20,743 nt of DNA, from IMG/VR virus record IMGVR_UViG_3300044675_008049, positions 1 to 20,743 of that record; one strand, 5' to 3'. This document shows, piece by piece, positions 1,213 to 19,238 of the stretch. A model generated the notes under the pieces. That model ran no database searches and was not told where the DNA came from. It saw nothing but the letters and a program-made list of their open reading frames with translations. The stretch's first letter is position 1. The number at the start of each line of letters is the position of its first letter. Source of the DNA: a virus. The position numbers and the translations under genes were made by a program.

Positions 1213-1226
1213 CGTTTATATTTAAT
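1213..1226 (-). promoter_or_regulatory. Weak late-promoter-like region for the neck operon
   Basis: Read leftward, two overlapping 6/8 matches to TATAAATA lie here: ATTAAATA (1226-1219, 8 nt from ATG) and TATAAACG (1220-1213, 2 nt from ATG). Neither has the 5-nt spacing seen at other genes. Since a terminator lies directly upstream, some promoter must exist close by. Confidence 0.35.
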
Positions 1227-2133: not shown

Positions 2134-2140
2134 ATAATTA
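2133..2140 (+). promoter_or_regulatory. Possible late promoter for the large terminase gene
   Basis: TATAATTA, a 7/8 match to TATAAATA, ends 9 nt before the ATG at 2150. It overlaps the start codon and promoter of the divergent gene. The spacing differs from the 5-nt rule seen elsewhere, so this is tentative. Confidence 0.35.
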
Positions 2141-2146
2141 TTTATA
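2139..2146 (-). promoter_or_regulatory. Late promoter (exact TATAAATA) for the acidic-protein gene
   Basis: Minus strand reads TATAAATA-ATTAT-ATG, an exact T4-type late octamer with 5 nt to the start codon at 2133 and no Shine-Dalgarno. It lies wholly within the 16-bp divergent intergenic region. Confidence 0.75.
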
Positions 2147-2149
2147 CAA

Positions 2150-3859
2150 ATGCCATCAAACTCTACTAAAAATGAATTTTATTTAGGTAATCCAAACCTA
2201 CCAAACAAACACTGGAAAGGTGAGTATACCAAAGAGATGGTTAATCATCTTAAAAAGAGTAAGCAAAACCTATTACACTTTGCTGAAAATTTCTTCTATA
2301 TTATTGATCCTGATGCAGGTAAGGTATGTATAGAACTATTTCCTTATCAAAAGCGCTGCTTAAGAACTATCAGAGATAATAGAAAGGCTATATTACTAGC
2401 TAGTCGTCAAGTCGGTAAGACGACCGTGTTAACTATCTACGCTCTTTGGATTGCCTGTTTTAATGATTATCAAAATATTGTTATCGTAGCTAACAAGGAA
2501 GCTACTGCTATTGAAATTTTCCGGCGAATTAGATTAGCATATGAAGAGTTGCCTAACTGGATTAAGCCAGGAGTAAAAGAATATGGTAAAACGTCTTGTG
2601 AGTTTGAAAATGGTTCACGTATAAGTATTAGTACAACGACAGGCTCTGCAGCTCGTGGTGCTTCTATTAACTGTATTATTATTGATGAGATGGCTTTCAT
2701 TGAACCTGAATCAATATTAGAAGATTTCTGGCGTTCTGTGTTTCCGACTATCTCGAGATCGAAGAAATCTAAAGTGTTAATTGCATCTACGCCTAATGGC
2801 ACTGGTAATCTGTTTCACCGGTTGGTTGATGGAGCTGAAAAAAACGAGAACGGCTTTGTATACGAGCGCGTTATATGGTCGGAGGTTCCAGGTAGAGATG
2901 AAAAATGGAAACAAGAGCAATTAAGAGCTCTCGGTAGTATGGAATCATTCTTACAGGAGTATGAATGTCAATTCCTATCTCTAGGAGACTCTTCTATTGA
3001 TGAAGAACTATTTTATGAGTTATCTCAAAAATGTACTGATGCTAAGATAATTTTAGACGATGGTCATTACAAAATATGGGAAGAACCAGATCCGTCTAGA
3101 GTCTATGTCGCAGGCGTTGATATATCTGAAGGAGTCGGTATAGATGCTTCTGTAATTCAAATATTAGATATAACTGATATTAGAGCTATTAAACAAGTAG
3201 CAGTATATCATAATAGACAAATACCACCTTTAGAGTTTGCAAATAAAGTATATTCTATACTTAGAAACTGGGGATCGCCTTTAGCTTTAATTGAACGTAA
3301 TAACTGTGGTGCACAAGTTGTTGATAGACTTGCATTTGATATGGGATATGAAAAAGTAGTCTCGTATGGATCTAAAGTAGCAAACAGAACACGACCACAA
3401 ATGGGTATGATAGCACATACTAATACAAAGTATAAAGGTGTTATTAATATGAGATACTTTGTTAATGAAATGCGGGTTGTAGAGTTTAGAGATATAGAAA
3501 CTCTCAAAGAATTTAAAGACTTTGTAAGGCATCCTAATGGTATTTGGAAAGCGAAATCAGGGTCACATGATGATAGGGTAATGTCATTTTTATATGCTTT
3601 GTATATTCTCGAAAAAGAAATAACAGAAAGATATTTCGATATTGTAGAGTTGGACGATCAAGGCAAGCCCCTACTCATTGAACCTATGGATTTCGGTATA
3701 GCTATGTTTGAGAACCCCACTTCAATATACTTAGATAACGAAGTAGCTGGAATAAATACAAATGCTATTACACCTATTGTTTTTGGTGGTGATGGCTCAG
3801 AACAACTATCTGAAATGGATGACTTAATTTCGCAAGGATGGAAACCATATGGCAGCTAA
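2150..3859 (+). CDS. 17: Terminase large subunit (DNA-packaging ATPase/nuclease), T4 gp17-like
   Basis: This 569-aa protein is the packaging motor that cuts concatemeric DNA and drives it into the prohead. The ATPase domain shows Walker A SRQVGKTT (85-92, compare SRQLGKTT in T4 gp17), Walker B CIIIDE (175-180) with the catalytic Glu at 180, and a coupling motif ASTPNG (212-217). The C-terminal RNase H-like nuclease shows acidic residues in GVDISEG (Asp324), IERNN (Glu382) and SHDDR (around 472-476). T4 gp17 is 610 aa, so this one is slightly short. There is no Shine-Dalgarno before the ATG. The start region is shared with the divergent acidic-protein gene, and the 3' end overlaps the next gene by 11 nt. 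The candidate small subunit is about 13 kb away on the other strand. Confidence 0.97.
   Translation: MPSNSTKNEFYLGNPNLPNKHWKGEYTKEMVNHLKKSKQNLLHFAENFFYIIDPDAGKVCIELFPYQKRCLRTIRDNRKAILLASRQVGKTTVLTIYALWIACFNDYQNIVIVANKEATAIEIFRRIRLAYEELPNWIKPGVKEYGKTSCEFENGSRISISTTTGSAARGASINCIIIDEMAFIEPESILEDFWRSVFPTISRSKKSKVLIASTPNGTGNLFHRLVDGAEKNENGFVYERVIWSEVPGRDEKWKQEQLRALGSMESFLQEYECQFLSLGDSSIDEELFYELSQKCTDAKIILDDGHYKIWEEPDPSRVYVAGVDISEGVGIDASVIQILDITDIRAIKQVAVYHNRQIPPLEFANKVYSILRNWGSPLALIERNNCGAQVVDRLAFDMGYEKVVSYGSKVANRTRPQMGMIAHTNTKYKGVINMRYFVNEMRVVEFRDIETLKEFKDFVRHPNGIWKAKSGSHDDRVMSFLYALYILEKEITERYFDIVELDDQGKPLLIEPMDFGIAMFENPTSIYLDNEVAGINTNAITPIVFGGDGSEQLSEMDDLISQGWKPYGS
3834..3841 (+). promoter_or_regulatory. 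Shine-Dalgarno for the tube-like gene at 3849
   Basis: AAGGATGG, inside the end of the terminase gene, lies 7-10 nt before the ATG at 3849. It supports translation of this overlapping internal gene from the terminase transcript. Confidence 0.6.
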
Positions 3860-4427
3860 TACGTACATACAATCGAGCTTAAATAAGTCGCGCGTTGATA
3901 AGTTTAAGCTGGTATTTCAATTACCAAACGCATTAAAATCTATTAACACACGTGATGATAGAGGCAATACAGTTGTTAATCAGGATTCTGTACAGTTTTC
4001 AGTTTACGGGTCAATAGTGCCAAGAATAACAGTGCCTGCGTTAGAAATACGTTATGGTGGCAGTACATTATATAATTCCACTCATAGTAAAAACTCATAT
4101 CCTCCTGTAACGGTTAATTTTACCGTTGATAACATGTTTAACAATTACTGGACTATGTATTCGTGGTTGAATCTAATGCATGATCAGCGAACAGGCCTTT
4201 TTGATGCAAATGAATTAATAGAAGATGAGGTATTTAGAGACTATCAAACAGATATATCTATCTTTGGTTTAGATGAATATGAGAAGCCTGTAGTAGAGTT
4301 TAAGTATACCAAAGCGTTTCCTACTGATCTTGATGAAATAAGCTATAACTACAGGCAATCTAACGAAATAGAATCATCATTTACGTTCGTTTACTCACAA
4401 TTATATATTTCGATGTTAAATTCGTAA
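3849..4427 (+). CDS. Tail-tube-fold structural protein upstream of the sheath
   Basis: A 192-aa protein with the look of the gp19-like tube family: an early FKLVFQLP strand (19-26), IVPRITVPALEIRYGGSTL (57-74), a PPVTVNFTVDN strand (85-95) and an aromatic NYWTMYSWLNLM helix (99-110). T4 has no gene between the large terminase (17) and the sheath (18), so this is an insertion relative to T4. It overlaps the terminase gene by 11 nt and has a Shine-Dalgarno inside it. Likely roles are an alternative tube subunit, a tube-end or baseplate-tube adaptor, or a tail-completion protein. Fold assignment is by pattern only. Confidence 0.6.
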   Translation: MAANTYIQSSLNKSRVDKFKLVFQLPNALKSINTRDDRGNTVVNQDSVQFSVYGSIVPRITVPALEIRYGGSTLYNSTHSKNSYPPVTVNFTVDNMFNNYWTMYSWLNLMHDQRTGLFDANELIEDEVFRDYQTDISIFGLDEYEKPVVEFKYTKAFPTDLDEISYNYRQSNEIESSFTFVYSQLYISMLNS

Positions 4428-4443
4428 TTTTCATCCGAAATTC

Positions 4444-4451
4444 TATAAATA
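4444..4451 (+). promoter_or_regulatory. Late promoter (exact TATAAATA) for the tail sheath gene
   Basis: TATAAATA-ATTAC-ATG: exact T4 late octamer, 5 nt from the sheath start codon at 4457, no Shine-Dalgarno. It suggests strong separate, leaderless expression of this high-copy protein. Confidence 0.8.
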
Positions 4452-4456
4452 ATTAC

Positions 4457-6763
4457 ATGGCTAAACGTACAATAAATTCTCCTGGTGTTGAGATTAGAGA
4501 AAGAGATTTATCATTAAGAGTACCAGCAGGTGCAGGGACAAATGTCTATGTTACTGGTTATGCTGATCAAGGTCCTTTAGATGAAGTAGTAGATATAGGC
4601 TCAATTACTGAGTTTGAAAATATCTACGGCACACCTAAAACACCAGCAGAGAGATACTTCTACCACACTGTTAAAGCAACATTAAATTCAACAGCTAGAC
4701 TTAAAGTTAACAGATTACCTTACGGTGCAGGGTCAGGTCAAGGCTTTGGATCCCTTTACTCAGTACTAGCATATCCAGTTTCAACTGTTGGCTCTTCAAC
4801 CTTTAATGTTACATCTGGTACATATTTAGTAGGTAAGCCAACTCAATTTAATTTAACAGAATCTCAGTATCTTGAGTTAGTTAATGGTACAACTTTTACT
4901 AACGGTTGGGGTGAACAATCATCTGCTACCTTTAACAGTGTTGCTAGCTTATCAGCTGCTGGTATTATTGTTATTAACAAAGGTCAGTCTGTAATCGATG
5001 GCAAGTTTAATGGTTACTATGTAGGTATTGCTGATAATACTAACATAAATCCTGCTAGTAGTTACGATGCTATTAGAACGGTATCTACTGTAGCTCAATC
5101 TGCACAATCTACAGGTCTTACCAGTTACATTACAATACCTAGCAGCAGATTTGACTTCTCGTTAACTGCTACACCAGCGTTTGGAAATAACCCAGCACAA
5201 AATTCTGTTTCGCAAGTAATGGAAGAGAAAATTACAGGGTATGATATTTCTACCAGAGATTTCGACGATACTCTTAATGTTGGAGTGTTCAAGCTTAGAC
5301 AATCAGTATTTTCTAACGATGCTACTAAACTAGATTATTTGCTGGAAGAGGGATACAACGGCTCTATCGGTTATTATAGACAAGTAAATAGTGAAAATGG
5401 CGGCCAACCTCTTAACTTCTTCTTAGAAAATGTAGAAAATGATTCTAGAAATGTAGAGATATTAGTTAATCCATATATTTCTGATGTATTTTCAGGTATT
5501 CAACTTAATAGTGACGGAACACCTAAAAAGAAAATTAGAGTTATATCAAATCAATTAAGAACTTTATTATCAGACAATCCTACATTAGGACAGTCTGTAG
5601 CTGGAGTTAATCTCACAGCATTTGACGCTGCAGCTACAGCATTAGGATATGCTGACTCACTATTCCCGCTTGGAGCATACGGTGAAGTAAAATTAAATCA
5701 AAAAGAAGTAGGTAATTTACCTCAAAAGCTTACCCGTGCACTTGACGGTATTAAAAATGATGAAGTGTTTGATCTTGATGTTCTAGCAGAAGGCGGTTTA
5801 GGCACTATCTGGGCTACAGTGTGCGCTACAAGTCAAGGTTTCTTTGATGATACAAAGACGAGCGCTAAGTTCGATGCTCTTAGAACATCTAATACACTAG
5901 TAGATACAGATGTTAGAGATTACTACACTACTATTGCTAGTCAGTTTGTAACTTTCTGCGGACCAATTAAAGATGGTGGTAGAGGTGACTGCTTATTCGT
6001 AGCTGATCCAATCAGACAAATATTAGTAACTGGTAAACAATCAAAGGTCATAGATGATCCTTCTAAGAACTTCTCAACCGATATTTACTGGGCGCTAAGA
6101 CACCAGTTTGAAAATATCAATACTTCGTATGCTACTACATATGCTAACTACATGAAGGTATATGATGATTATAGTGGTCTATACATTTACGTTCCGTCTT
6201 CCGGCTTTATCGCTGCTAAGCTTGCATCTACAGACTCAGATGTCGGACCATGGGGTGCGCCAGCAGGATTTAATAGAGGTATAATTACAGATGCTATTGA
6301 TTTAGCGATTTCACCTAATCAAAGACAACGTGATGAGCTTTATAAGATTAACATTAACCCGATTACTAAATTCCCAGATCAAGGCTTGGTAGTATTTGGA
6401 CAAAAGACACTTCTTAAGAAGCCAAGTGCATTTGATAGAATTAACGTACGTAGAAACTTCTTATATCTTGAAAAGGTAACGAAGCAAGTAATGAAGTTCT
6501 TCTTATTCGAGAACAACACATTGTTTACAAGAACAAGAGTTGTTAATACACTCATACCATTCTTTGAAAGAGTCAAAGTAGCAGATGGGTTATATGACTA
6601 CCTCATCGTTTGCGATGAGCGTAACAATACACCAGAAGTTATTGATAACAACGAATTAGTTGTTGACATTTATCTGAAACCGGTCAAGGCTGCAGAATTC
6701 ATCCTTGTTAACTTCTACGCAACAAGAACAGATACCAACTTCCAAGAATTAGTGGGAGGTTAA
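4457..6763 (+). CDS. 18: Contractile tail sheath protein, T4 gp18-like
   Basis: This 768-aa protein forms the contractile sheath around the tail tube. It begins with the classic sheath N-terminus NSPGVEIRERDLS (7-19), which contributes to the inter-subunit strand exchange that couples sheath rings. The conserved C-terminal part includes RINVRRNFLYLEK and later DIYLKPVKAAEFILV near the end. It is longer than T4 gp18 (659 aa). The extra length is probably in the surface-exposed middle domains, which vary widely between phages. It has its own exact late promoter and lies directly upstream of the tube gene, the usual sheath-tube order. Confidence 0.95.
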   Translation: MAKRTINSPGVEIRERDLSLRVPAGAGTNVYVTGYADQGPLDEVVDIGSITEFENIYGTPKTPAERYFYHTVKATLNSTARLKVNRLPYGAGSGQGFGSLYSVLAYPVSTVGSSTFNVTSGTYLVGKPTQFNLTESQYLELVNGTTFTNGWGEQSSATFNSVASLSAAGIIVINKGQSVIDGKFNGYYVGIADNTNINPASSYDAIRTVSTVAQSAQSTGLTSYITIPSSRFDFSLTATPAFGNNPAQNSVSQVMEEKITGYDISTRDFDDTLNVGVFKLRQSVFSNDATKLDYLLEEGYNGSIGYYRQVNSENGGQPLNFFLENVENDSRNVEILVNPYISDVFSGIQLNSDGTPKKKIRVISNQLRTLLSDNPTLGQSVAGVNLTAFDAAATALGYADSLFPLGAYGEVKLNQKEVGNLPQKLTRALDGIKNDEVFDLDVLAEGGLGTIWATVCATSQGFFDDTKTSAKFDALRTSNTLVDTDVRDYYTTIASQFVTFCGPIKDGGRGDCLFVADPIRQILVTGKQSKVIDDPSKNFSTDIYWALRHQFENINTSYATTYANYMKVYDDYSGLYIYVPSSGFIAAKLASTDSDVGPWGAPAGFNRGIITDAIDLAISPNQRQRDELYKININPITKFPDQGLVVFGQKTLLKKPSAFDRINVRRNFLYLEKVTKQVMKFFLFENNTLFTRTRVVNTLIPFFERVKVADGLYDYLIVCDERNNTPEVIDNNELVVDIYLKPVKAAEFILVNFYATRTDTNFQELVGG

Positions 6764-6771
6764 TCCAATAG

Positions 6772-6779
6772 AATAAATA
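6772..6779 (+). promoter_or_regulatory. Late-promoter-like octamer for the tail tube gene
   Basis: AATAAATA-ATATT-ATG: 7/8 match to TATAAATA with exactly the same 5-nt spacing to the start codon at 6785 as the exact copies. No Shine-Dalgarno at proper distance. Confidence 0.6.
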
Positions 6780-6784
6780 ATATT

Positions 6785-7330
6785 ATGCCAGTAAATCAAA
6801 ACATTCAGCAGTTCTACAGACAAGCAGCAGCTAGAGACTTCTCACGTGACTTCTTATTCAGAGTTACATCTTTGAAATTACAAGGAGTCACCGAGCTTGG
6901 TGATGGTGATCTCGTCTATGCAAAAACAGCAGCTCTACCTGGAAGAGCTATAACTAACGTAGCTGTACCATATATGGGCTTGAATATAAATGTACCTGGT
7001 GCAGCAACTTACCCAGGCTCAGAAAGCTATCCAATATCATTCTACTTAGATGCTAATAGCAATTTAAGAAATTATTTTGAACAAGCTTCACGCCAGCTAT
7101 TTGATGATCAATCATCAACTGGTGGTTATGGTACTCCAGATATTGATAGTTATATCATTCTTGAGCAGTTAGATAAAAAGCTTGAAGTAATTAAAGGTGG
7201 TAAGTATAAGTTGAACGGCGTTTCTATCAGAAGCATAGAAAATATTGGTTATAATATTGCTGAAGGTACTGGTAATACAGTGCCTATTGATGTGACCTTT
7301 GCATATCACTTCTATACCGTAGAAGGTTAA
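6785..7330 (+). CDS. 19: Tail tube protein, T4 gp19-like
   Basis: A 181-aa protein (T4 gp19 is 163 aa) that stacks as hexameric rings to form the DNA conduit inside the sheath. The diagnostic block AALPGRAITNVAVPYMGLNI (49-68), followed by a SYPISFYLD strand (81-89), parallels the ALP...VGFMNRKINV region and following strand of T4 gp19. The N-terminal RDFSRDFLFRVTSL (17-30) fits the first family strand. It lies 21 nt after the sheath gene, as in T4, and has a near-consensus late octamer 5 nt before its ATG. Confidence 0.85.
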   Translation: MPVNQNIQQFYRQAAARDFSRDFLFRVTSLKLQGVTELGDGDLVYAKTAALPGRAITNVAVPYMGLNINVPGAATYPGSESYPISFYLDANSNLRNYFEQASRQLFDDQSSTGGYGTPDIDSYIILEQLDKKLEVIKGGKYKLNGVSIRSIENIGYNIAEGTGNTVPIDVTFAYHFYTVEG

Positions 7331-7336
7331 TAAATA
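7329..7336 (+). promoter_or_regulatory. Late-promoter-like octamer supporting the GTG start at 7342
   Basis: AATAAATA-ATCTT-GTG: 7/8 match with 5-nt spacing. The octamer overlaps the stop of the tube gene. The conserved spacing argues that GTG at 7342 is the real start. Confidence 0.6.
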
Positions 7337-7341
7337 ATCTT

Positions 7342-8031
7342 GTGGCTGTAGGTCCTATAAGAGAAAGGCTCAATTTATTATCTGAAGCTTGGTCTTCAGA
7401 TATACCTCTTAAGTTTCTTTGGGCTATTGATATATATGGTGTAGATAGTGATAACATTAACGCTGTTAATGATTACTACGAGAAGCGTAGACGAGATGAA
7501 TGGACTACTCCTGATGCAGCTAGTATAGAGTCTTTTAGTTCAGATAACTTTGGATTCTTACTAGCACAGAACGTAAATTTTCCACAAGATTCTTTTAATG
7601 TTGGAAATCTTGAGGTAGGCAATGGAGGATTTCTACCAGGATATTACGGTGACACAAGATCAGGATATGGTGGCTCAAATAATCTAGGCATTACCTTTCT
7701 AGAGACAAATATTGATTTTGTTGATTACTTTATAAGACCGTGGATTATTGCTGCTTCGCATAAAGGCCTTATAGATGATGGAGATACATCAACCAATATA
7801 AAATGTACTGTTGAGGCTTATCTTTTTTCAAGAGATTCACAGTCTTCTACCTCTTCAACAAATATTGTTAATAGAAAATTAAAGGTTAGAAAACACTTTA
7901 CCTTTCATAATGTAGTACCATTTCAAGTAGAAGGTGATAACCTTAAAACCGAAGGAATGGACTATAGTGATTTATTAAAGCGGGTTTCTTTTGCGTTTAC
8001 GCATTACAGTACTACAAGACTATTAGGTTAA
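7342..8031 (+). CDS. Tail-tube-fold protein, possibly tube initiator (gp54-like) or second tube subunit
   Basis: A 229-aa protein with a GTG start. It carries a tube-family-like core: FGFLLAQNVNFP (70-81), then GITFLETNIDFVDYFIRPWI (116-135), a strand-helix segment reminiscent of gp19/gp54-type proteins, then KGLI. A charged YEKRRRDEW stretch at 46-54 precedes it. It follows the tube gene by 11 nt. T4 has no second tube gene here (gene 20 follows 19), but T4 gp48 and gp54 are tube-like baseplate adaptors. Because a gp48-like gene exists at 11499, this one may fill the gp54 role. That is inference from position and pattern only. Confidence 0.6.
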   Translation: MAVGPIRERLNLLSEAWSSDIPLKFLWAIDIYGVDSDNINAVNDYYEKRRRDEWTTPDAASIESFSSDNFGFLLAQNVNFPQDSFNVGNLEVGNGGFLPGYYGDTRSGYGGSNNLGITFLETNIDFVDYFIRPWIIAASHKGLIDDGDTSTNIKCTVEAYLFSRDSQSSTSSTNIVNRKLKVRKHFTFHNVVPFQVEGDNLKTEGMDYSDLLKRVSFAFTHYSTTRLLG

Positions 8032-8037
8032 CCCTCT

Positions 8038-8868
8038 ATGTCTAGTTTAACGAAATTTACCGTACCTATAACTACGCCATCCGGTAAAGATGTGCGGTTA
8101 GAAGGTATAACAAATAGACAGTATCAAGAGATTATAAAGTATTGCGCTATTAATGATTATGAGGGGTTAGAGAGTTTGTTTGAAACCTTAGTTTTTAGTA
8201 AGATAACGCATAAACTTAACTGTATAGATAAATTTTATATTCTTATTGCTTTAAGGATATTCTTTATAGATGAATCTATAACTATACTATCACAAGATAA
8301 AGAAATAACCCTATCTTTATATAAAGTCTTAGCTAATTTAGATAAAATAGAATTAGAAACTAAAATTTATAATGTTGACGGTATACAATTAGAGTTAGGG
8401 TACCCTGATAATTTGTTCTACTCAAATATTGATAGTTATTTAGATAGCATTATAGTTTCTCTAACTTTAAACAATAAGACTGTTTTATTTGATGATATAT
8501 CTAGCGAAGAGAAAACAGAAATTTTAAATTTCTTGCCTAATAAATGCTTATCTGTTTTATATAATCATTTTAAAGATATAACGGAGGCATTTGAAGATTT
8601 TATAGTAGTCGAAGAAAACACAGAGTTTAATATGGATAAGATCTCCTTTAATTTAATTTCTTCTAATTTAATATCTTTTATTTCTAATATATACGGCTTT
8701 AATACAGTATCCTTTTTTGAAATGCTCTATGTCTTTGTTAATAAGATGAAAGCTGACAGTAATTTGTTTTATTCTTTACCTCCTATAGATAGTAAGATAT
8801 TACTTAATATACTTAACGCTGAAATTAAAGAGCAAAACGATAGTTTAAAAACGCAACATAGTATATAA
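8038..8868 (+). CDS. Baseplate/tail assembly protein, T4 gp26-type; likely tail assembly chaperone
   Basis: A 276-aa, Ile/Leu/Asn-rich, mostly helical protein. The opening TVPITTPSGKDVRLEGITN (8-26) followed by a helical domain resembles the T4 gp26 family, small proteins needed for baseplate hub assembly but not part of the finished particle. Two such genes in a row lie immediately upstream of the tape measure, where many tailed phages place their tape-measure chaperones. It begins 6 nt after the previous gene, with no clear Shine-Dalgarno and no late octamer, so it is probably translated from an upstream transcript. Family membership is a pattern judgement. The gene itself is secure. Confidence 0.6.
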   Translation: MSSLTKFTVPITTPSGKDVRLEGITNRQYQEIIKYCAINDYEGLESLFETLVFSKITHKLNCIDKFYILIALRIFFIDESITILSQDKEITLSLYKVLANLDKIELETKIYNVDGIQLELGYPDNLFYSNIDSYLDSIIVSLTLNNKTVLFDDISSEEKTEILNFLPNKCLSVLYNHFKDITEAFEDFIVVEENTEFNMDKISFNLISSNLISFISNIYGFNTVSFFEMLYVFVNKMKADSNLFYSLPPIDSKILLNILNAEIKEQNDSLKTQHSI

Positions 8869-8871
8869 ATA
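8864..8871 (+). promoter_or_regulatory. Late promoter (exact TATAAATA) for the second gp26-type gene
   Basis: TATAAATA-GCCTT-ATG: exact octamer, 5 nt from the start at 8877, overlapping the TAA of the gene before it. Confidence 0.75.
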
Positions 8872-8876
8872 GCCTT

Positions 8877-9602
8877 ATGAGTAACAATGTATCTAGCTTT
8901 ATTTCTGATTTAAAAGATTTAGCTAATAAGGAAACAATCAATATTATAGTACCATCTATTAATAAAGCGGTTAAATTTAAGCCGCTTTCTGTTAGACAGC
9001 AAAAAGATGCTCTAAAAGCTAGCTTAGCAGGAGTTCACGGCACACTATTATTTTTCAACACAATAACCACCATCTTAGAAGAAAACTGTGAAGAGTCAGT
9101 CGAATTTACCATTCAAGATAGAGTTTACATTATTCTTCAACTACGTAATAACGCTCTAGGATCGACATATATTAAAGATGGTAAAACCTACGATTTAACA
9201 AGTTCATTCGTAGAGATTCCAAAAGCTCCAAATTTAGATATAGATTATAAGGGTATTAATGTGAAGCTCTCTATACCTACTCTGAAGACTGATACAGCTA
9301 TTAATCAAAAATGTGCTCAGGAGATTAAAAATAAGCAAGCCGAAGAGATTGCTGATGTTGTAGACATTATGTATGCTTACGAAATTCTTAAGTATATTGA
9401 AAGTGTTGAATTTAACGATGAGGTCATAGAATTTAGCACACTATCTCTTAAGAATAAGAAAGACGTGGTAGATGTGCTACCGTTAGCTCTTAATAAAGAG
9501 ATTCTATCTACTATTACAAAAATTAAGAATTATGACGACAATTATTTAAAGATACAAGGCGACGATCTAACACTTGACGTTAGTTTGCTGACTAGCGATT
9601 AA
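8877..9602 (+). CDS. Baseplate hub assembly protein, T4 gp26-like; likely tail assembly chaperone
   Basis: A 241-aa helical protein. The segment AVKFKPLSVRQQKDALKA (31-48) is typical of the T4 gp26 family (compare an 'FKPLTVKQQK' style block), and DRVYIILQLRNNALG (84-98) matches the following family helix. It appears to be a distant relative of the preceding gene product, suggesting an old duplication, although the two sequences have diverged strongly. It has an exact late promoter and lies 8 nt upstream of the tape measure gene. Predicted role: holding the tape measure or hub in an assembly-competent state. Confidence 0.7.
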   Translation: MSNNVSSFISDLKDLANKETINIIVPSINKAVKFKPLSVRQQKDALKASLAGVHGTLLFFNTITTILEENCEESVEFTIQDRVYIILQLRNNALGSTYIKDGKTYDLTSSFVEIPKAPNLDIDYKGINVKLSIPTLKTDTAINQKCAQEIKNKQAEEIADVVDIMYAYEILKYIESVEFNDEVIEFSTLSLKNKKDVVDVLPLALNKEILSTITKIKNYDDNYLKIQGDDLTLDVSLLTSD

Positions 9603-9605
9603 ATA
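9598..9605 (+). promoter_or_regulatory. Late-promoter-like octamer supporting the GTG start of the tape measure gene
   Basis: ATTAAATA-ATAAT-GTG: 6/8 match to TATAAATA at the same 5-nt spacing. An ATG at 9609 overlapping this GTG runs out of frame after five codons, so GTG at 9611 is preferred. Confidence 0.5.
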
Positions 9606-9610
9606 ATAAT

Positions 9611-11497: not shown

Positions 11498-11498
11498 T

Positions 11499-12575: not shown

Positions 12576-12579
12576 ATAT

Positions 12580-12960
12580 ATGAAAGAATTTGGAGATTTT
12601 CAATCTAATATATTAAGTTTACCCTCTTTAGAGCAAGAACGGTATGAGAATATTTTTAAGGTCTATGAAATAGAAAAATCATCTAATAATTTTTATTATT
12701 TTTATAATATACTTAAAAAGATCGAAATGCCTGATACTCTTGATAGAGATATTGTTGGTAAGTTAGATATTAATGTTAAGCTTCCATGGACAACTCTTTC
12801 TTACAAATTATATGGTACACAATATCTTTGGTGGCTATTATTTCTTCTAAATAAACCAAAAAATATATTTTATGCGGAAGCAGGAAGTGAAATAGAGTAC
12901 GTAAAGCCAGACTATATAACGCAGGTAGTTGATAGTATTCAAACACAAATACCAAAATGA
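12580..12960 (+). CDS. 53: Baseplate wedge protein, T4 gp53-like
   Basis: A 126-aa protein, shorter than T4 gp53 (196 aa). Its core LPWTTLSYKLYGTQYLWWLL (68-87) matches the gp53/LysM-like pattern in which a 'xxIYGxxxLYWxLxxxN' helix-strand unit is central. The C-terminal EIEYVKPDYITQVVDSI (104-120) fits the end of the same fold. gp53 joins baseplate wedges around the hub. The gene begins 4 nt after the gp48-like gene, and its stop overlaps the next start (ATGA), so translation is probably coupled. Confidence 0.75.
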   Translation: MKEFGDFQSNILSLPSLEQERYENIFKVYEIEKSSNNFYYFYNILKKIEMPDTLDRDIVGKLDINVKLPWTTLSYKLYGTQYLWWLLFLLNKPKNIFYAEAGSEIEYVKPDYITQVVDSIQTQIPK

Positions 12961-14621
12961 GTAACTATGTAACTATTAACAATAGTACCTATGAGTTTAA
13001 TGCTTTTTTAGCAAACAGCAACAATAAGGGATCTATATTTCCTATACCCAAAAGTATAATAGAATATCTTGAAATAGAAGATAGCCTATCATTTCCAGGA
13101 TTGAGAGGTACAATTAGTTTATCTAACTTTTTTGGTATTTTACAAAAACTAGAACTTTTTGATATTAGTAATGATATTAATTTATTAATTATCGATATTA
13201 ATAATAAGGATACAGAGACATCAGGCGCATTACCTATAAAATTAGCTTTTGAGGCTATTATTGGAGAAGCTGGTGAAAATTCTAATAATATAGTAGATAA
13301 AAAACTAACTTTTACTTTTGAAGAGTTTAATGTAGGGTACTTAAGAAATAGGTTTATAGAAAACAAAGATTTAGGAGACGGAACCTGCTCGGATTATATA
13401 AAAAAGGTAATATTGACGGGATTAGGAGAAACAGAAATAAAAAATGTTTTTGAGGTGGAAAGGGACACAGGAGATATTTTAAATACTAATGTACCAGCAC
13501 CTGCAGGTAGTATAGTTAAACAGACGCAATCTTGCTATGAAATTTTAAGACTGTTGATGAGACACTGTTACTTTGATGAAGGTATTCCAGGATTATTACA
13601 AATACACAACGTATATGAAAATAAAGACGTTAAAAGAAAATACAAACTAACGAATTTAGGTAAGTTTATTAGTGAGTTTTATACTAAAATCTCTAGCGGT
13701 AGTACAGATGTAGATTTATCAAAATACTTGCTAGAAACTTTTATAGCTGGTGATGCGACCTCATCGGTAACCTTCGGATCAAATTTTATAGATAAGTATG
13801 ATATTATTAGACCTAATTTAAAGGAGGTATTAGCAAAAAAATGGGTTGATTATAATATAGCACCTCAATCTTGCTCTGTAGATGGTGTAGTAAGTACAGA
13901 TGTATATCCTTATGAATATGCTAAAAATTTATTCGAATCACAGGTTCTAGGCGATACTTACACCTCTAATTTACCAGACAGAAACATAAGCACCACAGTT
14001 TCTAACTTAAGTGCTAGTTCTGAGTCTTCTCCAGGTGTAGAAAATACATCTAATGTTAATGCTATAGTTACGGTAATACCCGAAATAGCAGAATGGAAAG
14101 ACGCTATTAAAGCTATGGTGTTAAAGAGCTTTATATATGATAATACAGCTATTTCCTTTAAAGTACCTGGCAACCTCTACAGAGAAGCTGGTTACTTTAT
14201 TCAGGTTAAAGTAGAGCAGAATCAAGAAGTAAAGGATAAGACTCAAGATATAAGTGGTTATTATTTTATAATATCTATTAAGCATATTTTTTCCGGAGAA
14301 AATTACCAAAATGAAATTATAGCGGTTAAGCTAAATAAAAATCAAAAAATAAACAAGAATAATACTTCTAGCTTTATCTCTAACTTAATTTCCGGTACAT
14401 CTAAGCCTTCAACAGCTACCAATACTGCGAATGTCGCTGCTACTTCAGAAAAGACTGCAGCGCCCATAGAGTCTGCAAACATTACTACTAATACAACACC
14501 CGGAGTGATTAATACTAGCGCGACTATGGAAACTGAAGGATTGCCAGGAGCGAAAGGAAAAGCATTGCAGGATGTAGAACAGTATGGACCTCCTCCTCCT
14601 CCTCCTCCTACTACTACATAA
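12957..14621 (+). CDS. Baseplate central hub protein (gp27-like), with poly-proline C-terminus
   Basis: A 554-aa protein starting in an ATGA overlap with the gp53-like gene. Alternating beta segments and the late block SFKVPGNLYREAGYFIQVKV, then SGYYFIISIKHIFSG and a final EIIAVKLNKN strand, have the look of gp27-type hub proteins, which form the trimeric base of the cell-puncturing device. The last 90 residues are low-complexity Thr/Ser/Ala/Asn, ending in YGPPPPPPPTTT, encoded by seven CCT triplets (14589-14609). The following gene, a tail lysin, supports a hub assignment. The exact T4 counterpart (gp27 versus gp5 barrel) is uncertain. Confidence 0.65.
   Translation: MSNYVTINNSTYEFNAFLANSNNKGSIFPIPKSIIEYLEIEDSLSFPGLRGTISLSNFFGILQKLELFDISNDINLLIIDINNKDTETSGALPIKLAFEAIIGEAGENSNNIVDKKLTFTFEEFNVGYLRNRFIENKDLGDGTCSDYIKKVILTGLGETEIKNVFEVERDTGDILNTNVPAPAGSIVKQTQSCYEILRLLMRHCYFDEGIPGLLQIHNVYENKDVKRKYKLTNLGKFISEFYTKISSGSTDVDLSKYLLETFIAGDATSSVTFGSNFIDKYDIIRPNLKEVLAKKWVDYNIAPQSCSVDGVVSTDVYPYEYAKNLFESQVLGDTYTSNLPDRNISTTVSNLSASSESSPGVENTSNVNAIVTVIPEIAEWKDAIKAMVLKSFIYDNTAISFKVPGNLYREAGYFIQVKVEQNQEVKDKTQDISGYYFIISIKHIFSGENYQNEIIAVKLNKNQKINKNNTSSFISNLISGTSKPSTATNTANVAATSEKTAAPIESANITTNTTPGVINTSATMETEGLPGAKGKALQDVEQYGPPPPPPPTTT
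14589..14609 (+). repeat. (CCT)7 trinucleotide repeat encoding Pro7
   Basis: Seven perfect CCT units followed by ACT ACT ACA TAA at the end of the hub gene. Such runs are prone to replication slippage. Each gain or loss would keep frame and change the proline count. Confidence 0.9.
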
Positions 14622-14633
14622 CCAGATTTTCAA

Positions 14634-14641
14634 GATAAATA
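14634..14641 (+). promoter_or_regulatory. Late-promoter-like octamer for the tail lysin gene
   Basis: GATAAATA, 7/8 match to TATAAATA, 6 nt (not 5) from the ATG at 14648. No Shine-Dalgarno is visible. Confidence 0.5.
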
Positions 14642-14647
14642 TTTTAC

Positions 14648-16945
14648 ATGCTAATATATTCTAATAACTTTGCTGAAAAACTTTTCGGATATGCGATTAG
14701 CAGAGAGTATTTAAAGTATAGCTCTCCATTTTGTGATCTTTTAGATGATCCGAATTTAAAAATAGATTTTGACTTAGCTATAAATTTTAATAAAGGGTTA
14801 AATGGTGATATAGAAGCTGCTAATTTATTTACAGAGGATTTTATTATTAATGGACCCTCTCTAGACGTTTCTACTATAAATTTTTATGTAAAAAAAATGT
14901 ATCAATACCCTATATGGCACTCTCAGATCGAAAGAGTGTATTATGTATTTGGATATGTAAATAGAATAGGTGAAAGTAAGGTAGATTATAATCCTGGTGA
15001 GTCAAGATTTATTAATAAATTACTTGATGCATTAAAAGATTGTTTAAACTCGCCATGTAATTATTTTGCAGCTACTTCTGATTCAGTAGGTAAACTAGCA
15101 GAAGCTACAGCAAATACTAACAACGGTACTATGCCTCCTTTTAAAGAATTATTTGGAGAAATTAGCACTGTTATAGGTGGTATGGGTAAAAATCTTTTTA
15201 ATAAGATACCTGACGCATTTCAAAAGAGTTCGATTGAATTAGCTGCTATAGGACAGGCTGCGTTTGCAGAGTCTGTAAATATGTTTACTAAAGACGATAA
15301 AGATGAATTAATTAAAAAAGCGAAAGGAAAAATATCCTTACGAGGTGGTACAAAAGCAGGTAGTAGTATCTTCACTACCGATTATAAGTCATATTTAGAT
15401 CACACGGCAGCATCTACTAAGATTTTAGAAAAAGTAGCAGGGTCTATGGGTGATTGCTTTAGACAATACGAACAGGCCTATAGATACAATCCTTATAACG
15501 CTGATATGAATTTAAACGTATCTAACAAATCTCAAGTTAATGATCAAAATAACGGTCAGCTTTTTGAAAGAGATATAACAGGCCAGGTTATCACAGAGGG
15601 TGGATCTGATATATCAAACGGCTTAACGTTAGGTATAGGGGGATGCTCAGATAACGTTTCAACAGGTGGTGGATCTTCTTATAGCTCTGATGCAGAAGGA
15701 GTCGCCACAGAGGCTAATACTAATACAGGAGATGTTCTCTATGAATTCACTATAGGTGAACAAGAACCTGGTACAACCTTTGTAAATAGAGTTACTATAT
15801 TCGGAGGATGGTATGATATTGAAGATACAGAAGCTGTAGATGGTAAAACAGTATGGGCAGATTCTTACGGATTTACTTCTGGTGAAGGTAATGCTAATGA
15901 TAAAAACACTCAAGCTGGTGTAGGAAATGTTCCTGGAGTAATATATTGTCCAAGTACCCCTGGTCAAATAGCACAAACCGGTGTAGGTGCTAAAAACGGA
16001 TTTGTTAAACTAATTAACGATGGGTGGGTTAGTAGCGGTAAAGTTGATGCATTTGAAGCTAAAAAATTCAATCATGGTGTAGCTATAATATCACATGATT
16101 ATAGAAAATATATTAAGGGTAAAGGGTTAAAAACTTCTGACTGTGTTGCAGAATTAAGCTATAACGGTAAAGTTCTTAAAAATGTTAATATTATTGATAC
16201 AGGGGGCGCTCTTGGTCGACAAGCGGTACGACTTGATATGACTCCGTTTTTATTAAATCAACTCACAGGTAAACGACCTAATGGACCGTCTACTGCAGCT
16301 AGATCAAAAAGAGGTACAGATGGAATAGGCTCAGATGGTCAGCCTTCTGTAGAGTATTATACACTAGCAGATGGTACTAAGGTAAGACATAGATTTATAG
16401 GATGGCCTAGCGGGATGGGTGCAACTCCACTAGCAGGAATGAAGGTAAGAATTTTACGCAAGGGTAGTTCTGGTGCTGGTGGTGAATCTAGTACTGGTAG
16501 GGGTACAGGTAATATAAGATACGACCTTGCTGGTAAGAAGAGATCACTACCTATTAAAAAGCAATTAGAAGATATATTGCAGGGAGCAGCTGCAGAAGTA
16601 AAGGTAGATTTAATAGTATATAGTGGGGGTCAATTACCAGGAAGGGGAACCGGTTCTACAAGACATAATTACGGGTGGGCAGCAGATATGTATATTTCTT
16701 CAGGGGGAAGAAGACTTTCTAGCAGCAATCAACAGGATATACCGCTATTAACGTCTTTTGTTAAAGCTTGCCGTCGTAGAGGTGCTACAGGTATTGGCAT
16801 GGGACCAGGATATATGGGAGGTATAGGAATGCACGTCGATATATCTTATGGTAGATCAACCTCTGTACCTCCTAATTGCTGGGGTGCTGGAGGAAGCTCA
16901 GCAAATGCACCTGGTTGGCTAAGATCTGCTTTTAGCAGTTACTGA
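14648..16945 (+). CDS. Tail-associated peptidoglycan hydrolase: structural N-terminus, double-psi-barrel-like region, M15-type peptidase
   Basis: A 765-aa protein after the hub gene, in the functional place of the T4 gp5 lysozyme spike. Residues 1 to about 300 are an unrecognised structural part. A Gly/Ser/Thr-rich linker lies around 310-360. Residues about 430-605 include VNIIDTGGALGRQAVRLDMTP (Asp517, Asp530), resembling the double-psi beta-barrel core of RlpA-like transglycosylases. Residues about 618-745 match an M15-type metallopeptidase: TRHNYGWAADMY gives His673 and Asp680 (H-x2-G-x-A-x-D), and GGIGMHVDIS gives His729 and Asp731 (HxD). M15 enzymes cut peptidoglycan peptide crosslinks. 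The protein would locally digest the wall during injection. I see no T4-type lysozyme domain. The peptidase call is firm, the barrel moderate. Confidence 0.8.
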   Translation: MLIYSNNFAEKLFGYAISREYLKYSSPFCDLLDDPNLKIDFDLAINFNKGLNGDIEAANLFTEDFIINGPSLDVSTINFYVKKMYQYPIWHSQIERVYYVFGYVNRIGESKVDYNPGESRFINKLLDALKDCLNSPCNYFAATSDSVGKLAEATANTNNGTMPPFKELFGEISTVIGGMGKNLFNKIPDAFQKSSIELAAIGQAAFAESVNMFTKDDKDELIKKAKGKISLRGGTKAGSSIFTTDYKSYLDHTAASTKILEKVAGSMGDCFRQYEQAYRYNPYNADMNLNVSNKSQVNDQNNGQLFERDITGQVITEGGSDISNGLTLGIGGCSDNVSTGGGSSYSSDAEGVATEANTNTGDVLYEFTIGEQEPGTTFVNRVTIFGGWYDIEDTEAVDGKTVWADSYGFTSGEGNANDKNTQAGVGNVPGVIYCPSTPGQIAQTGVGAKNGFVKLINDGWVSSGKVDAFEAKKFNHGVAIISHDYRKYIKGKGLKTSDCVAELSYNGKVLKNVNIIDTGGALGRQAVRLDMTPFLLNQLTGKRPNGPSTAARSKRGTDGIGSDGQPSVEYYTLADGTKVRHRFIGWPSGMGATPLAGMKVRILRKGSSGAGGESSTGRGTGNIRYDLAGKKRSLPIKKQLEDILQGAAAEVKVDLIVYSGGQLPGRGTGSTRHNYGWAADMYISSGGRRLSSSNQQDIPLLTSFVKACRRRGATGIGMGPGYMGGIGMHVDISYGRSTSVPPNCWGAGGSSANAPGWLRSAFSSY

Positions 16946-16949
16946 TGAT

Positions 16950-17384
16950 CTAAACGTCTATAGCATCGTCATTGACTAATGCTTTCATAATATCCTCGCG
17001 TGATAATAAAATTTTTGTCTTGTTATCTGTAATGTTCATTCTTTCACGAGAGTCAACATCCATTTGCTTTACCGCTACTTGCGTTTTGTTTCGTTCATCA
17101 GAGATATAAACCTTATTTAAGGTCTCTATCGCTGACGAAGTAGCACTAATCAGCTCAGCTAATGCTGCTACATCTTTTGCGTCTGGTGCAGATGCTACGT
17201 AATCCTTTACATCATCAACTATATTAAGTGATTTCGTTACAAGCTTACCGGAATTTTTAATTATAAATTCTTCTAGCTGATCCTTAGTTAGAATTTCTTC
17301 TTCTGGCTGTTTTTTGGCGATCGTAACTGTACCTTTTAATTGAGATAAAATATCATTTACAGCATCATCTAAATCTGTATCCAT
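16950..17384 (-). CDS. Candidate terminase small subunit (T4 gp16-like)
   Basis: A 144-aa, mostly helical, charged protein. The central segment IVDDVKDYVASAPDAKDVAA followed by LAELISATSSAIETLNKVYI resembles the helical-hairpin core of T4 gp16 (164 aa), where a YxxxAPxA-like turn joins two helices. A charged tail (KQMDVDSRERMN, then LLSREDIMKALV) follows. gp16 forms rings that regulate the large terminase and recognise DNA. The gene converges on the tail-lysin gene with a 4-nt gap. It is divergent from the dUTPase gene, sharing a 50-bp promoter region. If correct, the two terminase subunits are split to opposite strands. The assignment is by pattern only; a coiled-coil structural protein is the alternative. 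Confidence 0.5.
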   Translation of the reverse strand: MDTDLDDAVNDILSQLKGTVTIAKKQPEEEILTKDQLEEFIIKNSGKLVTKSLNIVDDVKDYVASAPDAKDVAALAELISATSSAIETLNKVYISDERNKTQVAVKQMDVDSRERMNITDNKTKILLSREDIMKALVNDDAIDV

Positions 17385-17400
17385 TACTATATATTTAATC

Positions 17401-17428
17401 TTGATTTATGTATTGCAATAGTTATAAT
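17401..17428 (+). promoter_or_regulatory. Sigma70-like promoter for dUTPase and clamp loader
   Basis: TTGATT (17401-17406), a 16-nt spacer, then TATAAT (17423-17428). The -10 box ends 6 nt before the ATG at 17435, so this transcript too would be nearly leaderless. It differs from the late octamers, as expected for early or middle replication genes. Confidence 0.55.
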
Positions 17429-17434
17429 ATTAAT

Positions 17435-17869
17435 ATGAGTACAGATGTAACACTAAAATTTAAGAAAACTAACTTAGACGCTAAGCTACCTACCAAGAAC
17501 AATGAATCTGATACAGGTTTTGATGTTTATTGTGTAGAAGATAAGGTAATTCAAGCAAGAAATAGCGCTGTAGTTGATGTTGGTCTAGAATTTGCATATA
17601 TTACGCCAGGATACTGGGTTAAGGTTGAAGGACGTAGTGGTCTTGGGTTCAAACACGGTATTTCTCCTCATCCTGGCATTATTGATAGCGGGTATAGAGG
17701 AAATGCTGGTATTAAGCTATATAATAACACAGATATTACCTACGAGGTTAAAAAAGGTGATAGAATTGCACAGTTTGTAGTATATAAAAACTATAGTGTT
17801 GTAGTAGAAGAAGGAGATACAGTAGAATCTGATAGAGGTGCTAGTGGTTTCGGTTCATCTGGTAAATAA
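17435..17869 (+). CDS. dut: dUTPase (deoxyuridine triphosphate nucleotidohydrolase)
   Basis: A 144-aa trimeric-type dUTPase, converting dUTP to dUMP and pyrophosphate. This keeps uracil out of phage DNA and feeds dTMP synthesis. All five motifs are visible: SDTGFDVY (25-32), GRSGLGFKHGI (66-76), GIIDSGYRGNAGIKLYN (81-97, catalytic Asp84), KGDRIAQFVV (107-116) and RGASGFGSSGK (134-144). The ATG at 17435 is chosen over an in-frame ATG at 17408: the latter would overlap the promoter and add nine residues outside the fold. The next gene begins 1 nt after the stop, so the two form an operon. Confidence 0.95.
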   Translation: MSTDVTLKFKKTNLDAKLPTKNNESDTGFDVYCVEDKVIQARNSAVVDVGLEFAYITPGYWVKVEGRSGLGFKHGISPHPGIIDSGYRGNAGIKLYNNTDITYEVKKGDRIAQFVVYKNYSVVVEEGDTVESDRGASGFGSSGK

Positions 17870-17870
17870 T

Positions 17871-18791
17871 ATGTTAGATTTCAATAAAATTTGGGTTGAA
17901 AAGTATAGACCGCAAGCTCTTGACGACATTATACTGTCAGAAAGGAACAAAGAGATTGTAAGAGGGTTTATAGATGAGATTCCTAACTTACTTTTCGTTG
18001 GTACCCCTGGTACAGGTAAGACTACTTTAGCGAGAATTATTGTAAATGATGTTTTAAAGTGTAACTTCTTATATATTAACGCATCTGACGAGTCTGGTAT
18101 TGATACCATCAGACATAAAGTTACTAACTTCTCGCAAACTAAGTCGTTTGATGGTAAAGTAAAGGTGGTTATTCTAGATGAGTGCGATGGTCTCACCAGT
18201 CAAGCACAGGCAGCTCTTCGCAATACTATGGAGTCCTTTGCTAAGTATACACGATTCATTCTTACAGCTAACTATAAGCATAAGATCATTCCTGCTCTAC
18301 AGTCGAGATGTCAGTTTCTTGATATCAAGCCCACTCTAGAAGACGGGGTAAAGAGAATTTACAGTATTATTAAACAAGAAGGTATTGAAATAGATGATGC
18401 ACAGAAGAAGAAGTTTGTAGAACTCGTAAAAGCTAATTTTCCCGATCTTCGCAAGGCTATTAACGAGATTCAGAAGAATTGCATCAATGGCTCGCTAGCT
18501 ATTACTTCAGTTAGCGTGGATAATACACTATTGAGAGCTATTCATACAGCAATTGAACAGAAAGATATTTTATCATTACGAAAACATCTTATTGAGAACG
18601 AAAATACCTTTTATGGTGATTATGACACGTTAATGCGCGATTATCTCAATTATCTTTACGAGCAACCTATGCAAGATCTTAAAAAGAAAGAGATGATCGC
18701 AATAATTGCTGATCATCTCTATAAAAGCGCGTTTGTTTTAGATAAAGAAATTAACTGCTTTGCTTGTATAATTAATCTTGAAAGAGTTTAG
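17871..18791 (+). CDS. 44: Sliding-clamp loader ATPase subunit, T4 gp44-like
   Basis: A 306-aa AAA+ ATPase (T4 gp44 is 319 aa) that, with a gp62-type partner, loads the sliding clamp at primer ends for phage DNA replication. Motifs: an N-terminal WVEKYRP (8-14) typical of clamp loaders, Walker A GTPGTGKTT (44-52), Walker B LDECD (102-106), sensor-type LTANY (131-135), and the SRC box (145-147) carrying the arginine finger. The ATG at 17871 is chosen because WVEKYRP normally lies within the first 15 residues. An in-frame ATG at 17838 lies inside dut. The gene converges on the leftward operon with a 4-nt overlap of stops. Its 3' part carries that operon's apparent terminator on the other strand. 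Confidence 0.95.
   Translation: MLDFNKIWVEKYRPQALDDIILSERNKEIVRGFIDEIPNLLFVGTPGTGKTTLARIIVNDVLKCNFLYINASDESGIDTIRHKVTNFSQTKSFDGKVKVVILDECDGLTSQAQAALRNTMESFAKYTRFILTANYKHKIIPALQSRCQFLDIKPTLEDGVKRIYSIIKQEGIEIDDAQKKKFVELVKANFPDLRKAINEIQKNCINGSLAITSVSVDNTLLRAIHTAIEQKDILSLRKHLIENENTFYGDYDTLMRDYLNYLYEQPMQDLKKKEMIAIIADHLYKSAFVLDKEINCFACIINLERV
18681..18720 (-). terminator. Intrinsic terminator of the leftward head-protein operon, embedded in the clamp-loader gene
   Basis: Read leftward, AGAGATGATC (18720-18711) pairs perfectly with GATCATCTCT (18698-18689). Inside it GCAA pairs with TTGC around a TTA loop with one bulged base. The stem is followed at once by TTCTTTTT (18688-18681). It begins 68 nt past the stop of the gene ending at 18788. 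The rightward strand lacks a T-run, so the signal acts leftward, inside the coding end of the opposite gene. Confidence 0.75.
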
Positions 18792-19225
18792 ATTAACTTA
18801 CCACCAAGAGTTCCTTTTGACGTGGTAAATTGACCTTTTTTGGTAACTCTCTTAAGATTTTTAGCAATAGCTGCTTGAATATCAGAAACAAGAGCTGCTT
18901 CATCGGTCACCTCCATACCAAGCTTAGCTAAATCTCTAGTAATACTTTTAGCTGAGCTTCTAAGGTATGATCTATACCCAGCTTCTTCACCTACACCACC
19001 TGCTTTACCAAGTCTTTTTTCTCCTTCTTTAGCTATAGAGGCTCCGGTTTCAGGAGCTACTTTACCTATCATCTTACCTAACCCTTTAGCAGCTTTACCT
19101 TTAAGTGTCTCTTTAGCTCCTGCTACTTTTTGCGCACCTTTTGATCTAATTCTCTGAAGGAGACCTTCTTGAACTAATTCGTAAGCCTCTGTTAATAAAT
19201 CTAAATCTTGTTTAGTATTCTTCAT
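18788..19225 (-). CDS. Basic putative internal head protein with capsid-targeting-like N-terminus
   Basis: A 145-aa protein with no recognised fold, very rich in Lys, Gly and Ala over residues 21-80 (KGAQKVAGAKETLKGKAAKG), hence strongly basic. The N-terminus has an LTE-A (11-14) and a VQE-G (18-21) site. T4 prohead protease gp21 cuts after (I/L)xE, removing short leaders from internal proteins that are packaged with DNA. Size, charge and leader resemble T4 internal proteins IPI-IPIII. It is last in a leftward run of three to four genes, has its own exact late promoter, and ends before the embedded terminator. The function is inferred; an unrelated DNA-binding protein is possible. Confidence 0.7.
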   Translation of the reverse strand: MKNTKQDLDLLTEAYELVQEGLLQRIRSKGAQKVAGAKETLKGKAAKGLGKMIGKVAPETGASIAKEGEKRLGKAGGVGEEAGYRSYLRSSAKSITRDLAKLGMEVTDEAALVSDIQAAIAKNLKRVTKKGQFTTSKGTLGGKLI

Positions 19226-19230
19226 AATAT

Positions 19231-19238
19231 TATTTATA
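19231..19238 (-). promoter_or_regulatory. Late promoter (exact TATAAATA) for the basic internal-protein gene
   Basis: Minus strand reads TATAAATA-ATATT-ATG: exact octamer with 5-nt spacing to the start at 19225. It fills the 14-bp gap after the upstream gene. No Shine-Dalgarno. Confidence 0.8.

Follow-up and report, generated by a model that had tools for sequence, protein, structure and literature searches.

Late promoters in an uncultured T4-related phage very probably keep the T4 -10 octamer, with its core TAAATA, and have lost the 5' leader; mRNAs across the whole phage would be leaderless. The DNA in question, hereafter the window, is the entire IMG/VR virus record IMGVR_UViG_3300044675_008049 (20,743 bp, 35% GC), identified as a fragment of a T4-superfamily phage from a widespread, uncultured, T4-related clade. 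In the proposed scheme, early genes would be transcribed by the host sigma70 polymerase, the next genes from a lineage-specific class of promoters, and late genes by a gp55 polymerase, every class initiating on the start codon or next to it. At late promoters the octamer ends 5 (or 6) nucleotides (nt) before the start, and T4 geometry would make +1 either the opening base of the ATG or GTG or the base before. Host RNA polymerase with the phage gp55 sigma factor, which needs no -35 element, would initiate at this point, giving a leaderless mRNA whose translation would be start-codon-first (5'-AUG) and independent of a Shine-Dalgarno (SD) sequence. The wider reading is somewhat favoured: the clade would have given up mRNA leaders in its early class (sigma70-type), its middle-like class (lineage-specific) and its late class (gp55-type), with promoter spacing replacing the SD as the start signal and the major capsid mRNA keeping a conserved two-hairpin leader. 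The octamer positions, the spacing statistics, the conservation, the late-gene specificity, the gp55 homologues of relatives and the lack of an SD signal are observations; the actual start sites, the gp55 dependence in the clade, the translation route and the translation of promoterless internal genes were inferred from sequence.

Predicted late promoter octamers in the window

A preliminary description of the window had placed four exact copies of the T4 late octamer TATAAATA 5 nt ahead of the starts 2133-, 4457+, 8877+ and 19225-, with variants at the same octamer-to-start distance (gap) before 6785, 7342 (GTG) and 9611 (GTG) and at gap 6 before 14648. All are present as claimed (Table 1). 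With 1210- and 17384- newly added, TAAATA lies 5-8 nt upstream of the start in 10 of the 21 window genes. The same description had cautioned that several octamer copies would arise by chance, and the six exact copies in the window compare with 5.5 expected; thus the fixed spacing, not abundance, carries the signal. When the upstream regions are modelled at order 1, the probability of four or more exact octamers with gap 5 among 21 starts is ~5e-11, and that of six NATAAATA with gap 5 is ~2e-14. A terminator-like hairpin (GGCCTG...CAGGCC) with a T run (window 1258-1227, minus strand) directly abuts the putative promoter of gene 1210-, and orthologues of this gene show a like stacking of terminator, promoter and ATG.

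Spacing across relatives

Relatives were collected from IMG/VR by a terminase scan, which yielded 79 loci, and by a capsid scan, queried with the gene of a relative, which yielded at least 600 stretches. The octamer-to-start spacing, which the preliminary description had proposed as a test in relatives, was compared in 88 relative sequences, TAAATA sites being dereplicated by N-terminal protein similarity. Among 518 dereplicated TAAATA-to-start pairs, 224 fall at gap 5; the counts at gaps 0-14 are 6, 14, 8, 9, 2, 224, 76, 24, 12, 16, 9, 10, 0, 8 and 9. All eight long relatives (40-202 kb) show the gap-5 peak, and it recurs in a capsid-gene-picked set (510 kb), where gaps 5 and 6 hold 62 and 18 sites and the background is ~2 per bin. 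Of 213 exact copies of TATAAATA in the terminase-picked loci and the window, counted before dereplication, 88 have gap 5 and 14 have gap 6. Related contigs are not fully independent in these counts, and start codons were taken from open reading frames (ORFs) and orthologues. Orthologue alignments show the motif retained at places with turned-over flanking DNA. Among 226 genes with the motif, 66 are oriented divergently from the gene upstream, and in 58 an upstream stop codon overlaps the motif, as it does at window positions 7329, 8864 and 9598.

Predicted position of the transcription start

The T4 octamer spans -13 to -6 (PMC1524935), as the preliminary description had stated, so gap 5 would make the initial base of the start codon +1. 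A pyrimidine is found at -1 in 91% of gap-5 sites, as suits this placement. At gaps 7-9, a pyrimidine-purine step occurs at nt 5/6 after TAAATA, where T4 has its +1, in 34 of 52 sites, compared with 24% at 682 internal controls (p 2e-10), and other positions in the same sites carry such a step in just 6-21 of 52. As the step stays at nt 5/6 when the ATG lies 2-4 nt farther, the initiator travels with the octamer and not with the ATG.

These longer gaps bear on a reading in which the promoters are real and start-site scatter yields leaders of 1-5 nt, making the mRNAs nearly rather than strictly leaderless. Gaps 6-9 are themselves enriched (76, 24, 12 and 16 sites after dereplication), and the initiator step falls 2-4 nt before the ATG where the gap is 7-9. 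However, gap 5 outnumbers gap 6 threefold and has the -1 pyrimidine already noted; the nearly leaderless reading is very unlikely.

Late-gene specificity and gp55

In the relatives, the motif precedes 42 of 67 virion genes and 0 of 19 replication genes (p 3e-7). Homologues of gp55 are encoded in two relatives, G001 and G002; they are 58% identical to each other and are matched by HTVC008M gp55 at E 2e-19 and 1e-15. When the clade proteins were aligned to T4 gp55, with the pocket residues taken from PMC7892883, L54, F86 and Y97 were kept in both and T99 only in G001. A single HTVC008M gp45 query gave no match at E 1e-4 in the contigs compared. The occurrence at virion genes on both strands, the absence at replication genes and the gp55 homologue strongly support the assignment of the octamers as putative T4-type late promoters.

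The same specificity bears on whether TAAATA-N5 could instead be a translation signal, that is, an AU-rich element that binds ribosomes within a longer mRNA, and no promoter. The host is apparently not SD-using and might need some other signal for starts, and many motif sites lie between close tandem genes. Yet the motif is the T4 late octamer with T4 +1 geometry, it marks virion genes alone, and at gaps 7-9 the pyrimidine-purine step follows the octamer and not the start codon. Moreover, three further promoter classes, which have a -35-like box or an upstream box, sit at the same place (see below), and some motif sites lie directly after terminator hairpins or in divergent spacers. A translation signal is, on this evidence, very unlikely.

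Chance or misannotation (AT-rich DNA, a stop TAA followed by ATA, wrong start codons) would agree with the lack of over-representation of TATAAATA in the window and with the stop-codon overlap in 58 of 226 motif genes, but it is refuted, and its probability negligible, because the gap-5 peak (224 of 518) survives dereplication and is seen in separately picked loci, the 66 divergent motif genes involve no stop codon, and the N-termini of orthologues align at these start codons.

Predicted early and middle promoters

Genes of relatives without TAAATA show a TATAAT peak at gaps 6-7 and TTGA at gaps 29-31. Combined as TTGA-N16-19-TANNNT, these elements occur at 8, 22 and 9 sites at gaps 5, 6 and 7, compared with 0-3 elsewhere. 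The window itself contains a predicted promoter of this type before its dUTPase gene (Table 1). Two further arrangements have an upstream box. In G002, the element AAACACTA-N3-TANNNT-N6-ATG has the ATG at exactly N6 in 41 of 73 box copies; in G004, GGAAC-N5-TATAAT has it at N6 in 17 of 23 copies. In the two classes together, all 58 of these sites have a pyrimidine directly ahead of the ATG. The AAACACTA box is classed as a lineage-specific early/middle promoter box. Its 73 copies, 67 of them on one strand, are in L108-L111 (G002, ~118-193 kb), often before small genes, and the 23 GGAAC copies are in L092-L093 (G004, ~52-79 kb), forming a second lineage-specific class that is absent from G002. 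As these early and middle promoters would also set +1 on the ATG, leaderlessness would be a trait of the whole phage and not of late genes alone, and it looks pervasive across temporal classes.

TTGA 29-30 nt before the start is also seen in ~20 of 232 late-motif genes of long relatives, as if these putative promoters were read by both the host sigma factor and gp55.

Shine-Dalgarno sequences and the two-mode model

Ahead of starts in the relatives, SD sequences are absent or nearly absent as a class, with no SD peak. In contrast, T4, HTVC008M, Cr30, V45v66 and phiM9 have clear SD peaks, several of them at 5-9 nt. The preliminary description had proposed a two-mode system, with leaderless translation from late promoters and SD translation of overlapping genes, on the basis of SD sequences at 864- and 3849+. 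The letters are there: AAGGAG 8 nt before the ATG of 864-, and AAGGA ~11 nt before the start of 3849+. The site of 864- is mostly missing in orthologues, whereas orthologues of 3849+ mostly carry the ATAAATA motif instead (NATAAATA at gap 5-6 in 52 of 77), and the letters at 3849+ may simply be terminase coding sequence. With SD absent as a class, both SD-like sites unconserved, and early and middle classes that also put +1 on the ATG, the two-mode model is unsupported. The other half of that proposal, the prediction of leaderless late transcripts, is strongly supported by the same spacing at hundreds of dereplicated sites of relatives, the late-gene specificity, the gp55 homologue, the initiator-like step where T4 has its +1 and the contrast with other T4-type phages.

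The capsid leader and other points of conflict

Several observations weigh against late promoters that yield leaderless mRNAs throughout the phage. At the starts tested, 25 of the 67 virion genes are without the motif, some of them inside operons. The T4 gp55 pocket residues N13, R57 and H95 are changed in the clade proteins, and no gp55 turned up within the window, a 20.7-kb fragment. Tandem genes may also be read on an upstream polycistronic mRNA, where they would not be leaderless. The capsid gene, with a conserved structured leader, is a predicted exception to leaderlessness. For operon-internal genes with neither promoter nor SD (8038, 11499, 12580 and 12957), coupling to the gene upstream is the probable route of translation.

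Major capsid (gp23) genes of the relatives, which lie outside the window, are preceded by a ~80-110-nt 5' leader with one or two hairpins, in the order ACCCUGAACAAUGAGG...CCUGAG..., second hairpin, (G)GUCGAAA, GAAAGGAAA and AUG. In an alignment (A2) of 24 leaders (23 distinct, including L134:3906-4003, L136:3472-3568 and L204:3900-4003), pairing holds in 99.5% of cells, both partners have changed in 7 of 10 pairs, so that the hairpins covary, and every slid register falls far short. A comparison with Rfam gave no family match for the window or the capsid leaders.

Gene content, phylogenetic position and host

T4-type structural genes are found on both window strands (terminase large subunit, sheath, hub, tape measure and baseplate), two tail-tube-like proteins are among the structural products, and a clamp loader (gp44) and a dUTPase are also encoded. 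The product of 1282-2133 is acidic and of low complexity, with an internal near-repeat (NAPKEPNMGKNNKVGNL / NAKEPNYGKNNKVGSL), and has no PHROG match. Likewise without a PHROG match is the 765-aa product of 14648-16945, the C-terminal part of which (STRHNYGWAADMYI...MHVDIS) resembles, by eye, a peptidoglycan peptidase domain.

Table 1 Predicted promoters and selected genes of the window. Gap is the number of nt between the octamer and the start codon.
Feature	Position	Strand	Remarks
Late promoter -10 octamer TATAAATA (predicted)	2139..2146	-	Gap 5; predicted +1 is the A of ATG 2133; 44/63 orthologues (gene 1282-) at gap 5
Late promoter octamer TATAAATA (predicted)	4444..4451	+	Gap 5 to tail sheath ATG 4457; 59/71 orthologues at gap 5
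Late promoter AATAAATA (predicted)	6772..6779	+	Gap 5 to tail tube ATG 6785; 18/49 orthologues at gap 5, many others TTAAATA/CTAAATA
Late promoter AATAAATA (predicted)	7329..7336	+	Gap 5 to GTG 7342; overlaps TAA stop of upstream gene (7328-7330)
Late promoter TATAAATA (predicted)	8864..8871	+	Gap 5 to ATG 8877; TAA stop of upstream gene (8866-8868) inside
Late promoter ATTAAATA (predicted)	9598..9605	+	Gap 5 to GTG 9611; TAA stop of upstream gene (9600-9602) inside
Late promoter GATAAATA (predicted)	14634..14641	+	Gap 6 to ATG 14648; predicted leader 0 or 1 nt
Late promoter TATAAATA (predicted)	19231..19238	-	Gap 5 to ATG 19225
Late promoter ATTAAATA (predicted)	1219..1226	-	Gap 8 to ATG 1210; the nt-6 rule predicts a 3-nt leader; gap 5-6 in some orthologues
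Late promoter-like ATTAAATA	17392..17399	-	Gap 7 to ATG 17384; weakest, pyrimidine-purine step at nt 5/6 missing
Early sigma70-like promoter TTGATT-N16-TATAAT (predicted)	17401..17428	+	6 nt before dUTPase ATG 17435 (whole unit 17401-17437); predicted leaderless early gene
Tail sheath (gp18) gene	4457..6763	+	PHROG 23, E 4e-72
Terminase large subunit (gp17) gene	2150..3859	+	PHROG 2, E 1e-55; window copy without TAAATA in front
dUTPase gene	17435..17869	+	PHROG 135; first ORF start 17408 discarded and start moved to 17435 on promoter spacing

The window has no close DNA relative among 50,697 phage records, and its terminase is at most ~38% identical to terminases of the same phage collection. 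Trees of gp18 and gp20 place a clade of nine and a clade of three, respectively, each with support of 100/99, apart from T4, HTVC008M, S-T4 (cyanophage) and Cr30. The RM378 branch is very long in these trees, and the Lake Pavin reference sequences lie outside the comparison; the position fits the uncultivated Far-T4 group and is no proof of membership.

A single-protein query for relatives in bacterial genomes gave none. An alignment query gave one TerL, 46% identical, at the edge of a contig (L131:1-12498) from a Verrucomicrobia metagenome-assembled genome (MAG), the only cellular lead; 1 of 289 Verrucomicrobia genomes has a TerL match. This host assignment was rejected, as the remainder of the contig looks bacterial and the contig is probably a chimera or a bin error. 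The pattern TANNNT-N6-ATG occurs 739 times in the Verrucomicrobia MAG, compared with 522 for the reversed pattern, and was set aside as too weak to use. The tRNAs are scattered and give no host clue. Flavobacteriales make little use of SD sequences. Far-T4 phages have been linked to Flavobacteriales by prediction (PMC7198788, PMC13037479), with which the finding of no Bacteroidota-type TANNTTTG promoters before the starts is in tension.

Comparison with known systems

In the textbook case of T4 late transcription, a leader that carries a ribosome-binding site comes after the octamer. The T4 late promoters consist of TATAAATA and depend on gp55, gp33 and gp45 (PMC2988020, PMC1524935). The clade resembles T4 in the octamer core, the dispensable -35 signal, the location at virion genes on both strands and the gp55 homologue in long relatives. 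The motif family is also common to the late promoters of cyanophages, pelagiphages and other T4-like phages (NATAAATA), and the clade octamer is looser at its first two positions (TAAATA core), like the CTAAATA of Aeh1. What differs is the distance to the gene: octamers of the T4 late region stand 12-35 nt ahead of the start, mostly 24-28 nt, and a GGAG-type SD lies in between, whereas in the clade the gap is 5-6 nt with no SD. The fusion of octamer to ATG is thus unlike the T4 arrangement. HTVC008M has mostly long leaders with SD, and isolated short gaps (gp3 at 5, gp13 at 8). The gap-5 peak is absent in the stretches compared of nine cultured or reference T4-type phages, namely T4, HTVC008M, AG-345-F15, XG4, V45v66, RM378 (40 kb), S-T4, phiM9 and Cr30. 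In the literature searched, no report joining T4-type late promoters with leaderless mRNA was found.

Leaderless bacterial genes have a TA-like -10 element ~10-12 bp before the start (PMC3160421, PMC12340547), and those of Deinococcus-Thermus and Actinobacteria lack an SD, as in the clade. The positionally fixed -10-like signal with no SD in front corresponds to the TA-led class of PMC3160421. The bacterial genes use the TANNNT box of the host sigma factor, whereas the clade would also fuse the phage late-sigma octamer and phage-specific upstream boxes to the start codon. If leaders have indeed been lost from every temporal class, the clade would offer, on a large scale, a natural test of how leaderless mRNAs are translated when expression is heavy; its host must then translate efficiently without SD, and start-codon calls could be improved in many uncultured genomes.

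Far-T4 phages (uncultivated, with the isolate RM378) are, like this clade in the gp18 and gp20 trees, uncultured and outside the T4/cyanophage/pelagiphage group (PMC4360716). Genes of T4 transcription were described as missing from them and their transcription as possibly different (PMC4360716). Promoters fused to start codons, if confirmed, would help explain the odd-looking transcription signals in such far T4-like phages.

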